Below, in pieces: positions 40,241 to 43,954 of a stretch of DNA of 52,136 nucleotides. Both the position numbers and the translations under genes were made by a program. Within the stretch, counting starts at the first letter, position 1. The number at the start of each line of letters is the position of its first letter. The notes under the pieces are model-generated. The model was not told the origin of the DNA and searched no databases. It was given only the letters and a program-made list of their open reading frames with translations. This DNA is from Armatimonadota bacterium. GTDB lineage: Bacteria > Armatimonadota > UBA5829. The stretch lies in the NCBI GenBank assembly GCA_039679645.1, contig JBDKUO010000060.1:1-52136 (forward strand), read 5' to 3'.

Positions 40241-42319
40241 TTATGCCCTCGCAATGTCGCCATCTCTAATCTCAAATCTCGGAGCGGAGGCGTCCAGCTC
40301 GGAAAACATATCTGCAGTCTCGGGATGGCAGGTAAAGAAGAGGACCTGGTTAGAGACTGCAAGCTCAGCTATAGCTTGCGCAGCGGCACGGGAGCGGGCC
40401 GGATCGAAGTTGACCAGGATATCGTCCATTATCACAGGCAGAGGCTCGGCTGCAAGGCCATACTCAAGGATCAGACCGAAGCGCAGAGCCAGATAGAGCT
40501 GCTCGCGAGTGCCGCGGGAGAGTTTCGAGACGTCCCTGCGGATGCCCTCGGAAGTCTCAAGCTCAACTTCATCCCGGCCCAGGGGCGAGAAGACCCGTGA
40601 ATATGCGCCGGATGTGAATCGATTTAGAAAACCTGACGCGGACTGTATTACTCGGGGCTGTTTTTCGCGCTCATACTGCTGACGGGTCTGCTCCAGGAGC
40701 GATTTGCAGATAGCCTTCACGGCCCAATCGGATGCGTGTTTATCCAACTGCGCTTTAAGTGCCCTCTCTTGCAGGAGGGCTGCTGAAAGCTCCTCGCTTT
40801 TTTCGATCTCGGCTTTGCGCTGGATGAGCCGCCCGCGCCTCTCGATCAGATCTGAAAGATTGACTTGAAGCCGGTCAAGCTCATCGCGTTTGCTCATGTA
40901 TTTGGACTGGATCGAATCAAAATCTGTCGATTCAAGCTCGGGCTTAAGATGCATCGCATGTTCCCGGCCAGCAATCAGCTCGATATCGGCTTCCAGGCGG
41001 GCAATATCTGCCCTGATCTGCTCGCGTCTGGAATACACTTCGCTGCGGTTTCGGAAATCCTCCTCATCGGCTGATCCGCCTGCTCGAAGCAGGGTTTCAT
41101 GATCTCTTCGAGCCTGGTCAAGCTCATTTTCGAGGTCCGCAATCTCGCTCGATATCCTGGCGATTGCACTCTCATGCGACTGCTTGAGATGATCATAGAC
41201 TTGGGCGCGATGCGACTTCTCTGACGCATCGAGGTTCGACTGCACCCAGAACCCTGCTGAAACCGCAGTAATACCCAGCAGCCCGAAGGCCGCCGCCGCC
41301 AGAGCGTTATCTCTGAACGCTACCGAAAGAGCGACCAGACACATTCCTATTATTATCGCGATAGGTTTTACAGGGGCCCGCCTTATAGGCTGCATGGACA
41401 CATCTGTTGGGCAGTTATGTTTTTGAGTTTCAAGCTCGGATCGTTTAAGACTGAACCTGTGTGAGAGGTCGGCTGTTTTCTCTACAGACCGCTCCAGGCG
41501 TCCGATTCCGTCGGCTGGAAAGGAATCGATATCGGGCAGGCAGTCGAACTCTGCCTTGGCTCTATATAGAGACTCCCAGATCGGCCAGGCCTTTTTCATC
41601 TGGTCAAGATGGGTTATCTCTCTTTCCAGGCAAGTCTTTTGCTGCTGAGCCTTCTGTATATCACTGTCGATACTTGATAGCTGAGCGCAGAGAGTATCAT
41701 AATCCGAGCTTAGTGTGCTCAACTCTTTGATCTTTGAACTGCAAGAGCCGATCTCGCCCAGCAGAGCATTTATCTTGGGTTTGCCGGCTCTCGGGGAAAA
41801 CAGAGCAGACATCTCCGAGTCGATCCGCTTCTCTACATCGACTGCCGATATATCTCCCGCACCGGCGCCATAGCTGTAGATTCGCGAACGGACGTCTTGA
41901 GAATCCAGCTTTTGGAGTTCGTCCAGACTGAAAGCAAAAACGTTGCGATGAAGGTCTTTTTTTACTCCCGGCAGAAGTTGGGATATAGTCTCCTCGCCGC
42001 CTTTGGCGCCGTCGGGCATCGTAACTTCGAGCACTCCCTGCGCTCTGCCGGGTCCGCGTTTGATGATGTAGTCCAGACCGCTGCGGTCCAGCCGGAGCTT
42101 GATTATGCCGCCGTGCTCCACATCCGCAATGGGCTTATACTGGTTCTCCCTGCTCTGAGCTGTCTCAAAGCCGAAAAAGACCGTTCTGATGAAGGCAAGC
42201 AGCGTGCTTTTGCCCGCCTCGTTGTCCCCGACGAATATATTGAGGCCGCCCGAGAGGCCGTCGACGCGCACTTTGGAGAGCATGCCGAAACCCGATATGA
42301 AGAACTCAGAGATCTTCAT
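40241..42319 (-). CDS. SbcC/YhaN-type ATPase of an exonuclease complex
   Basis: 692 aa. Walker A GDNEAGKST (about 31-39), signature LSRGTREQLYLAL and Walker B PVIMDDILVNFDPAR are intact, with long coiled-coil arms in between. Two hydrophobic helices near the middle (PIAIIIGMCLVALSVA and LLGITAVSAGFWVQ) are a feature of YhaN-like rather than classical SbcC proteins, and suggest membrane association. There is no CxxC zinc-hook. It starts 3 nt after the phosphoesterase stop (ATG at 42319 with GGAGGAGACC), so the two form a complex typical of SbcCD/Mre11-Rad50, which processes DNA ends and hairpins. Confidence 0.85.
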   Translation of the reverse strand: MKISEFFISGFGMLSKVRVDGLSGGLNIFVGDNEAGKSTLLAFIRTVFFGFETAQSRENQYKPIADVEHGGIIKLRLDRSGLDYIIKRGPGRAQGVLEVTMPDGAKGGEETISQLLPGVKKDLHRNVFAFSLDELQKLDSQDVRSRIYSYGAGAGDISAVDVEKRIDSEMSALFSPRAGKPKINALLGEIGSCSSKIKELSTLSSDYDTLCAQLSSIDSDIQKAQQQKTCLEREITHLDQMKKAWPIWESLYRAKAEFDCLPDIDSFPADGIGRLERSVEKTADLSHRFSLKRSELETQKHNCPTDVSMQPIRRAPVKPIAIIIGMCLVALSVAFRDNALAAAAFGLLGITAVSAGFWVQSNLDASEKSHRAQVYDHLKQSHESAIARISSEIADLENELDQARRDHETLLRAGGSADEEDFRNRSEVYSRREQIRADIARLEADIELIAGREHAMHLKPELESTDFDSIQSKYMSKRDELDRLQVNLSDLIERRGRLIQRKAEIEKSEELSAALLQERALKAQLDKHASDWAVKAICKSLLEQTRQQYEREKQPRVIQSASGFLNRFTSGAYSRVFSPLGRDEVELETSEGIRRDVSKLSRGTREQLYLALRFGLILEYGLAAEPLPVIMDDILVNFDPARSRAAAQAIAELAVSNQVLFFTCHPETADMFSELDASAPRFEIRDGDIARA

Positions 42320-42321
42320 TG

Positions 42322-43578
42322 TCAGGTCTCCTCCGTCAAAGCGTCCAGACCGTAGAGAGCCGCCGCATCCAACCATTCCAGAAGCCGGTCATCACTGGGC
42401 CGGCTCAAATATGCGTGAGCCCGACCATGCTCAAAGAGAGGCTGCAGCGCGCTCCTGAGACCTGCAAGGCGATCCGGGTTCTGGCGCGCTTCCTGCGCCA
42501 GCCGAAGGAAGTCGCCTACAAAGTCTTCGGATAGACGCCTCTCGTCTATATTGATATCCGGCCGGGTCTCATCTATTATCGACTCGACCCAGACAAAATC
42601 CCCATGCAGTGATTCGCTTTGCCTGAGGTCGTCTGTGATATCCTCTAGTATAGCCTTGCGCGCCAGTGTGCGGTGAAGAGGTGTCCTGCCAATCAGGTGA
42701 AAGCGAACCAGCGCCGGACGGCCTGACCGCCGTCTGATATCCTCCAGCCTCTCGCCAAGAGAGTCGATAAGCTCCTGCTCCTGCGTGACCCCTGTGGCGG
42801 ATATCTCTTCATCAAACCAGCGAATCGCGTCGGTCTCTGTAAACTCCAAACTTGCGCTGCCCGCATCATCGACACTAACGATATAGCAGCCCTTTGGACC
42901 GGTCTCTTTGGGGTTCAGACCCTGTGAGCTGCCGGGATACACTACAAGGGGAGCGCTGTCGCGCAGGATGGCCCTCTTGTGAATGTGGCCAAGTGCCCAG
43001 TAGTCGAAGCCGGAATCTGCAAGGTCGGCTAGTGTGCACGGCGCATATGGATCATAGCTTGCTGCCTGGCCGCAATTGCAGTGCAGCAGAGCCACGGCGA
43101 ATGGAGAATCTTTGTCATGCGAAAGACGCAGGGCAAGGTTTTCAGTAATACCGGATTTTGAGTGGCTGATACCGTGGACTGTTGCGATCAGGCTGCCATT
43201 GCGGATAACCGGTCTGACTTCAAGCTCAGACGATGAGAAGAAGTGGACACTTGCAGGCCAGTCGAGACTTGCGCTCCAGCCGTTGGATGGGTCATGATTG
43301 CCGCATACTATATATGAGCTGATGCCCGCCTCGGACAATTTTTCGAGAGCAGAGCGAAACCTCAGCTGTGCGCGCAGGCTTTTGTCGCTGCAATTATACA
43401 CATCCCCGGCTATTACCAGAAAATCGACACTGCGTGCCAGGCAGAGCTTGACGATGTTATCGAGCGAGGCAAAAGTGGCATTTTGCAGGACTGACGAAAG
43501 CTCCGGAGAGATGTATCCCAGACCATCGAACGGACAGTCCAGATGCAGATCGGCCGCATGCACGAATGTGAACGACAT
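42322..43578 (-). CDS. SbcD/YhaO-type DNA repair phosphoesterase
   Basis: 418 aa. Mre11-like metallophosphoesterase: DLHLD (residues 10-14), VIAGDVYNCS, GNHDPSNGW, LHCNC and GHIHK metal ligands are all present. It should be the nuclease subunit with the downstream ATPase. The start is the ATG at 43578 after GAGCACTGAGGAG. It is the first gene after a promoter, c-di-AMP riboswitch and terminator on the same strand, about 110 nt past the terminator, so expression is probably controlled by c-di-AMP. Confidence 0.88.
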   Translation of the reverse strand: MSFTFVHAADLHLDCPFDGLGYISPELSSVLQNATFASLDNIVKLCLARSVDFLVIAGDVYNCSDKSLRAQLRFRSALEKLSEAGISSYIVCGNHDPSNGWSASLDWPASVHFFSSSELEVRPVIRNGSLIATVHGISHSKSGITENLALRLSHDKDSPFAVALLHCNCGQAASYDPYAPCTLADLADSGFDYWALGHIHKRAILRDSAPLVVYPGSSQGLNPKETGPKGCYIVSVDDAGSASLEFTETDAIRWFDEEISATGVTQEQELIDSLGERLEDIRRRSGRPALVRFHLIGRTPLHRTLARKAILEDITDDLRQSESLHGDFVWVESIIDETRPDINIDERRLSEDFVGDFLRLAQEARQNPDRLAGLRSALQPLFEHGRAHAYLSRPSDDRLLEWLDAAALYGLDALTEET

Positions 43579-43687
43579 CTCCTCAGTGCTCCGATTAATC
43601 ACTTCGAGTTATAATGCGAGAAATCGCCGATAAAGCATTGAAAAGCAGATTCCTCACATTAGTTCGGAATGACGGAATAGGTGACAA

Positions 43688-43720
43688 TTAAAAAGCTGCG
43701 ATAGACAGATCTACCGCAGC
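43688..43720 (-). terminator. expression-platform terminator of the riboswitch
   Basis: Minus strand GCTGCGGTAGAT, loop, ATCGCAGC-type pairing (GCTGCG / CGCAGC, with TAGA/TCTA inside), then TTTTTAA. The first arm CTGCGG is also complementary to CCGCAG in the 3' part of the aptamer, which would form an antiterminator. Confidence 0.85.
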
Positions 43721-43734
43721 GTGTGGTTGAAAGA

Positions 43735-43852
43735 TACCTTCCTGCCTCGCCTGCGGAGTAAGCTGTCGGGCTAGGGTAGGAAGCTCCCCCTCCGTTTCCG
43801 GACTCGCCCCCTCATCGGTCGGGTCCTCCGCTTTCATAAGAAATTAGGCGTT
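43735..43852 (-). ncRNA. c-di-AMP riboswitch (ydaO/yuaA class)
   Basis: The minus-strand RNA has the conserved blocks of the ydaO class in order: P1 CGCCU (43850-43846), GCGGAGGACCC, GGGGGCGAGUC, GCCCGACAGCUUACUCCGC, AGGCG (P1 3' strand, 43752-43748). CCCGACAGCU-ACUCCG is nearly identical to my recollection of the Thermoanaerobacter tengcongensis aptamer. CUUCCU (43783-43778) and AGGAAG (43743-43738) can form the class's pseudoknot. This class usually switches genes off when c-di-AMP is bound, by letting the terminator form. Here the next genes are sbcD/sbcC-like, not the usual K+ transport or wall hydrolase genes. Confidence 0.92.
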
Positions 43853-43903
43853 TTGTTATGTATTCGATTTTGTATTAAGTTGTACAGTCGTGTGGAATTG
43901 GGA

Positions 43904-43954
43904 AGGTGCAAAGCACCTCGGCACTATAATAGTGCTGCTTGCAAGATTTGTCAA
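43904..43954 (-). promoter_or_regulatory. promoter of the riboswitch-sbcD-sbcC unit
   Basis: Minus strand: TTGACA (43954-43949), 17 bp, TATTAT (43931-43926). A perfect inverted repeat GCACTA-TTA-TAGTGC (43935-43921) covers the -10 box and could be an operator. A further AGGTGC-TTT-GCACCT hairpin (43918-43904) lies at the transcript start. It is downstream of the LTXXQ gene, so the riboswitch has its own promoter. Confidence 0.75.

Follow-up and report, generated by a model that had tools for sequence, protein, structure and literature searches.

Riboswitches for c-di-AMP are known to control K+ and amino-acid transport, cell-wall remodelling and the osmotic response (PMC7266159). The locus described here, on the minus strand of a 52,136-nt stretch of Armatimonadota DNA (the window, from genome G000), places such a riboswitch ahead of an Mre11-like nuclease gene and a Rad50-like ATPase gene. 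This raises the question of whether c-di-AMP controls a DNA-end-processing machine in this organism, from which enzyme the signal would come, and in which direction it would act.

The leader RNA: promoter, aptamer and terminator

An Rfam scan of the window at the gathering threshold returned RF00379 (ydaO/yuaA) as the sole match, at 43860–43733 on the minus strand, covering the complete model (1–134) and scoring 73.1 bits (cut-off 38; E = 3.8e-15). The original prediction had proposed a c-di-AMP riboswitch with its own promoter and a covariance search as the check, and the search gave a significant, full-length match; the motifs and coordinates of that prediction are correct. The P1 helix (43850–43847 with 43751–43748; CGCC/GGCG) is paired in 26 of 26 aligned relatives. 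In the pseudoknot (43783–43778 with 43743–43738; CUUCCU/AGGAAG) 79.5% of cells in the relatives' alignment are paired and five of the six pairs show double-sided changes, such that the P1 and pseudoknot arms named at the outset are seen to be paired or covarying across relatives. Taken over all RF00379 helices and the pseudoknot, 93.8% of cells are paired and 14 pairs carry double-sided changes, a level of covariation reached by none of 500 shuffles. Position 43760 is U in the window and in G012 and A in 24 of the 26 aptamers aligned (CAGCUUAC vs CAGCUAAC), a substitution that could weaken ligand binding.

The window leader belongs to a class of seven, comprising those of the window, G012, G013, G014, G001, G002, and G003. 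A pattern scan places a sigma70-type promoter at 43954–43926 (minus strand), with TTGACA (43954–43949) and TATTAT (43931–43926) separated by 17 nt and an 11/12 match. It is followed by a 5′ leader hairpin, GAGGTGCTTTGCACCTTCCC (43919–43900, minus strand), which is kept in all seven leaders in the form GAGGT...ACCTcCCC. A second pattern scan identified an intrinsic terminator at 43720–43690 (minus strand), 12 nt past the aptamer match, with an 11-bp stem, a 4-nt loop and T5 (GCTGCGGTAGA-TCTG-TCTATCGCAGC-TTTTT; −16.6 kcal/mol). By themselves such scans are near chance, as shuffles are expected to yield 0.8 promoters and 0.5 terminators; both elements are found again at the equivalent place in relatives, and the promoter recurs in the same position and form in the leaders of G012, G013, G014, G001, G002, and G003. 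The terminator, likewise proposed originally, is firm. A perfect palindrome, GCACTATTATAGTGC (43935–43921, minus strand), covers the −10 box and is intact in the window and G012. It was considered as a possible operator, for example a LexA box, and set aside, being missing from G013 and G014.

A competing antiterminator is plausible. Its predicted first strand, CTCCGCAGGCG (43758–43748), overlaps the 3′ strands of P1 and of the long-range helix, and its predicted second strand, CGCTGCGGTAG (43721–43711), consists largely of the terminator's 5′ arm, both on the minus strand; in the folding model the folded aptamer would exclude the first strand. The pairing is calculated at −14.1 kcal/mol, a value equalled by 22 of 500 shuffled arms, so that the energy taken alone gives modest support. 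Some antiterminator pairing is possible in each of the seven leaders (17 to 77 of 500 shuffles do equally well). In the window and G012 the antiterminator is the predicted minimum-energy fold as long as the terminator lacks its 3′ arm; in the other five it is not so predicted. Thus the antiterminator first drawn between CTGCGG and CCGCAG stands as a possible pairing throughout the class, but its advantage over shuffles is modest and it appears as the intermediate fold in two of seven leaders.

A YhaO–SbcE operon downstream

The first gene of the operon (42322–43578, minus strand) encodes a 418-residue Mre11/SbcD-like phosphoesterase, YhaO, with a Metallophos domain, a profile match to Mre11 structures and conserved metal-ligand motifs (DxH, GD, GNHD, H166, and GHIH). 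It starts at ATG 43578, with a possible earlier GTG start at 43602. The second gene, sbcE/yhaN (40241–42319, minus strand; ORF open from 42376), begins at ATG 42319, 2 nt beyond the yhaO stop, and encodes a Rad50-like ATPase of 692 residues that matches PF13514 (AAA_27) with 58 bits and Rad50 structures by profile. Its Walker A motif is GDNEAGKS and its Rad50-type ATPase motifs are intact. Hydropathy indicates membrane-type helices at residues 317–335 and 339–357 of SbcE, and a CxxC zinc hook was not found in the window protein. A mid-coil hydrophobic stretch is present in 56 of the 59 partners of homologous YhaO proteins.

Scored against the SbcD model TIGR00619, YhaO reaches 48.8 bits, below the cut-off of 77.65, and in a tree of 43 proteins it falls within a YhaO clade that spans many phyla and excludes the family's more SbcD-like proteins. 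The operon is of the yhaO–sbcE (yhaN) type rather than canonical sbcD/sbcC. Of the earlier sbcD/sbcC assignment, the Mre11-like and Rad50-like genes downstream are retained, but the canonical SbcCD identity is not, given the score below the SbcD cut-off and the missing hook. Together the two genes are predicted to specify an Mre11/Rad50-like nuclease complex anchored in the membrane. A role in anti-phage defence was rejected, as SbcE matches many defence ATPase models weakly (best 45 bits) and has no matched partner.

The genome holds another such pair, at C32 (G000:C32), whose ATPase carries CxxC at residue 412 and lacks a membrane helix, and whose SbcD-like protein scores above the window YhaO against TIGR00619, yet also below the cut-off. 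This zinc-hook pair is without a riboswitch, because the only two riboswitches of the genome are those at the window locus and on C27.

One leader, two unrelated cargoes

Our family survey comprised 25 riboswitches in 15 genomes. In the aptamer tree the seven leaders form one clade (local support 0.82), and they share the consensus sigma70 promoter, 5′ hairpin, aptamer and terminator. Over the 70 nt preceding the aptamer, the window scores z of 4.6–14.1 for similarity to the other six leaders, versus at most 2.1 for the other riboswitches. The leader stands ahead of yhaO–sbcE in three species of one genus (window, G012, and G013), and in G013 the leader–yhaO–sbcE unit occupies a genomic location unlike that of the window and G012. 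In two species of a sister genus (G002 and G003) a homologous leader precedes another Mre11/Rad50-like pair, about 26% identical, that forms a separate clade in the protein tree and is non-orthologous to yhaO–sbcE. The ATPases of this pair likewise have mid-coil hydrophobic helices of membrane type and no zinc hook. Comparison of the leaders of relatives, the approach originally recommended, thus finds the leader with an Mre11/Rad50-like pair in five genomes of two genera, with the order promoter–aptamer–terminator–gene maintained in all five. That one leader precedes two non-orthologous pairs of like design is the strongest evidence for a functional association.

The remaining two members of the class, in G014 (L024, C93:2185-2316) and G001 (L018, C275:6228-6357), have the complete promoter–leader–aptamer–terminator unit, and no ORF of at least 70 aa was found across over 500 nt downstream. 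Each is either a remnant or a free-standing c-di-AMP-sensing RNA. Read-through in G014 would be antisense to a convergent gene that lies beyond the unit; synteny at this leader is uninformative, its tatD and flippase neighbours not being adjacent in other genomes. A further genome, G006 (L073 158-2673, C190), carries a pair of the second type directly after HIT and UDG genes, which are also neighbours of the window's yhaO locus, and no riboswitch was detected at that pair. The same genomic place therefore holds non-orthologous pairs in the window genome and in G006.

An ECF-sigma-type promoter motif, GGAAC-N17-CGT, lies within 200 nt upstream of 13 of the 18 other riboswitches of the family (shuffles expect 0.13), namely L001 1501-1632 (G000:C27:6066-6197), L005–L011, L015–L017, L020, and L025; it occurs in 0 of 7 yhaO-class leaders. 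The motif suggests that these riboswitches may be under joint control of an envelope-stress sigma factor and c-di-AMP. In L001, L005, L006, L007, L008, L010, L012, L020, and L025, 2–8 nt lie between the end of the aptamer and the start codon of a small gene resembling, by appearance, a STAS-domain anti-sigma-factor antagonist, and with this spacing these riboswitches are probably translational.

Across the phylum sample, the riboswitch is present in 67 of 201 genomes. Profiles of both nuclease types, run over these 67 genomes and two riboswitch-free members of the family, gave no further riboswitch-adjacent case, which points to lineage-specific recruitment in the two genera. Nor was such a riboswitch found at the loci of the 80 nearest homologues of YhaO from named genomes, a set reaching from Bacillota to archaea, and YhaO function is therefore generally independent of the riboswitch.

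Source of the signal, mechanism and known systems

The break-repair link had been ascribed to DisA, the c-di-AMP-producing DNA-damage scanner, with a search of the genome for disA as its check. We found no disA. The sole diadenylate cyclase domain of the genome belongs to CdaA (DAC and CdaA_N domains), whose gene is followed by CdaR/YbbR and then by an ndk-like gene, and the DisA linker domain is present in 0 of 19 genomes of the order and was detected in three control genomes. Judged from its CdaA and CdaR genes, the organism probably makes c-di-AMP. CdaA output tracks K+, turgor and wall state. With CdaA as the only cyclase and no DisA, the DNA-integrity-scanner account fails here; the riboswitch and the repair-type operon are real, but that DisA-derived c-di-AMP tunes break repair directly through them is scarcely credible. 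A weaker version of the idea might survive if CdaA output changed in response to damage.

In the mechanism we favor, the RNA would start at the TTGACA/TATTAT promoter. With CdaA-made c-di-AMP in the aptamer, CTCCGCAGGCG would stay engaged as the 3′ strand of P1 and the long-range helix, leaving the terminator (43720–43690) free to fold and the operon off. At low c-di-AMP, CTCCGCAGGCG would instead pair with the terminator 5′ arm and the polymerase would continue into yhaO and sbcE. Since the predicted product is a membrane-anchored nuclease, the K+, turgor and envelope state would set the level of DNA-end processing. We consider it probable that a transcriptional OFF riboswitch lowers YhaO–SbcE at high c-di-AMP in this way and couples K+, turgor and envelope to DNA-end processing; here we infer that the aptamer binds the ligand, that the response is OFF, that the complex is anchored in the membrane and acts in break repair, and what the physiological signal is. 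More tentatively, CdaA-made c-di-AMP may gate a second, membrane-anchored Mre11/Rad50-like complex, relaying turgor, K+ and envelope state to DNA ends, and the leader may be older than its present cargo, having been retained while the nuclease pair behind it was replaced by a non-orthologous one of like design.

The opposite direction, in which an ON switch or a mainly translational one lets c-di-AMP raise the nuclease, would fit the family's other riboswitches, with their aptamers ending just before the start codon of the STAS-like gene. At the window locus, however, a strong terminator lies close behind the aptamer and the helices that the ligand would stabilise share bases with the competing strand, an arrangement from which an OFF switch is predicted, and the characterised kdp leader of Bacillus thuringiensis was shown experimentally to be an OFF switch acting via intrinsic termination (PMC6488665). 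We regard the ON version as very unlikely. It is also unlikely, if less strikingly so, that a private promoter after the terminator drives the operon and leaves the riboswitch as a short separate RNA or a relic. The gene-less units L024 and L018 would suit such an arrangement, as would the enlarged gap between terminator and ATG in the window, which has about 85 extra bases relative to G012 and G013. Within this extra stretch lies a dispersed genomic repeat, GTCATTCCGAACTAATGTGAGGAATCT (43647–43673, minus strand), that is absent at this place from the relatives; the repeat GTCATTCCGAACNNNNTGAGGAATCT and its variants occur elsewhere in G000 as well, and a loose pattern of it matches the genome 14 times, versus 0 for the reversed control pattern. 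In G012, G013, G002, and G003, however, the start codon follows the terminator stem after only about 16–36 nt, which makes a conserved private promoter unlikely, and a promoter scan of the window found none after the terminator. A weak TATAAC box near 43609–43614, the basis of the original concern about a separate promoter, was rejected as a candidate: it lies in the stretch unique to the window's genome, where the scan finds no promoter. A separate promoter is thus not the arrangement conserved in the class: the relatives lack room for one, and the longer gap of the window contains the repeat.

A different objection accepts the switch and questions the cargo. The pair might serve membrane or osmotic physiology, for instance nucleic acid processing at the membrane, rather than repair, and its association with c-di-AMP would then be ordinary. 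In both cargo types the middle of the coil does bear membrane-type helices and lacks a zinc hook, and the genome's cytosolic-type pair is the one without a riboswitch. Set against this are the intact Mre11 metal-ligand and Rad50-type ATPase motifs, and the Bacillus yhaONM operon, a putative double-strand-break repair cluster in which YhaN is SbcE and which is assigned to LexA/SOS regulation (PMC3896406). On balance we find a purely membrane-physiological role rather unlikely and retain the coupling of c-di-AMP to DNA-end processing as our preferred reading.

The window leader has the complete aptamer, helices, pseudoknot, sigma70 promoter and intrinsic terminator of the RF00379 class, and differs from that class in the genes controlled, an Mre11/Rad50-like pair. 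With the B. thuringiensis kdpFABC riboswitch it has in common the promoter, aptamer, intrinsic terminator and a long 5′ UTR; that system governs K+ import and has been characterised by experiment, and the predicted target in the window is a nuclease/ATPase pair. The window operon shares with YhaO–YhaN of Bacillus subtilis and B. pumilus an Mre11-like protein beside a Rad50-like one and mid-coil hydrophobic helices that replace the zinc hook. Bacillus YhaN, at about 930–1000 aa, is longer than the SbcE of the window, and the Bacillaceae yhaO loci examined showed no c-di-AMP riboswitch. Canonical SbcCD/Mre11–Rad50 belongs to the same superfamilies, but the window pair falls below the SbcD cut-off and has no zinc hook, and the question arises why one Mre11/Rad50-like complex of this genome would be membrane-anchored and signal-controlled and the zinc-hook one neither. 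Our literature search, incomplete enough that an earlier mention is possible, found no link between the RF00379 class and an Mre11/Rad50-like pair. Connections between c-di-AMP and DNA repair have so far rested on DisA; here a repair-type nuclease is tied to c-di-AMP through an RNA leader, in organisms without DisA and with two unrelated pairs, which suggests that c-di-AMP, known for the control of salt and the cell wall, also governs a DNA-repair machine.
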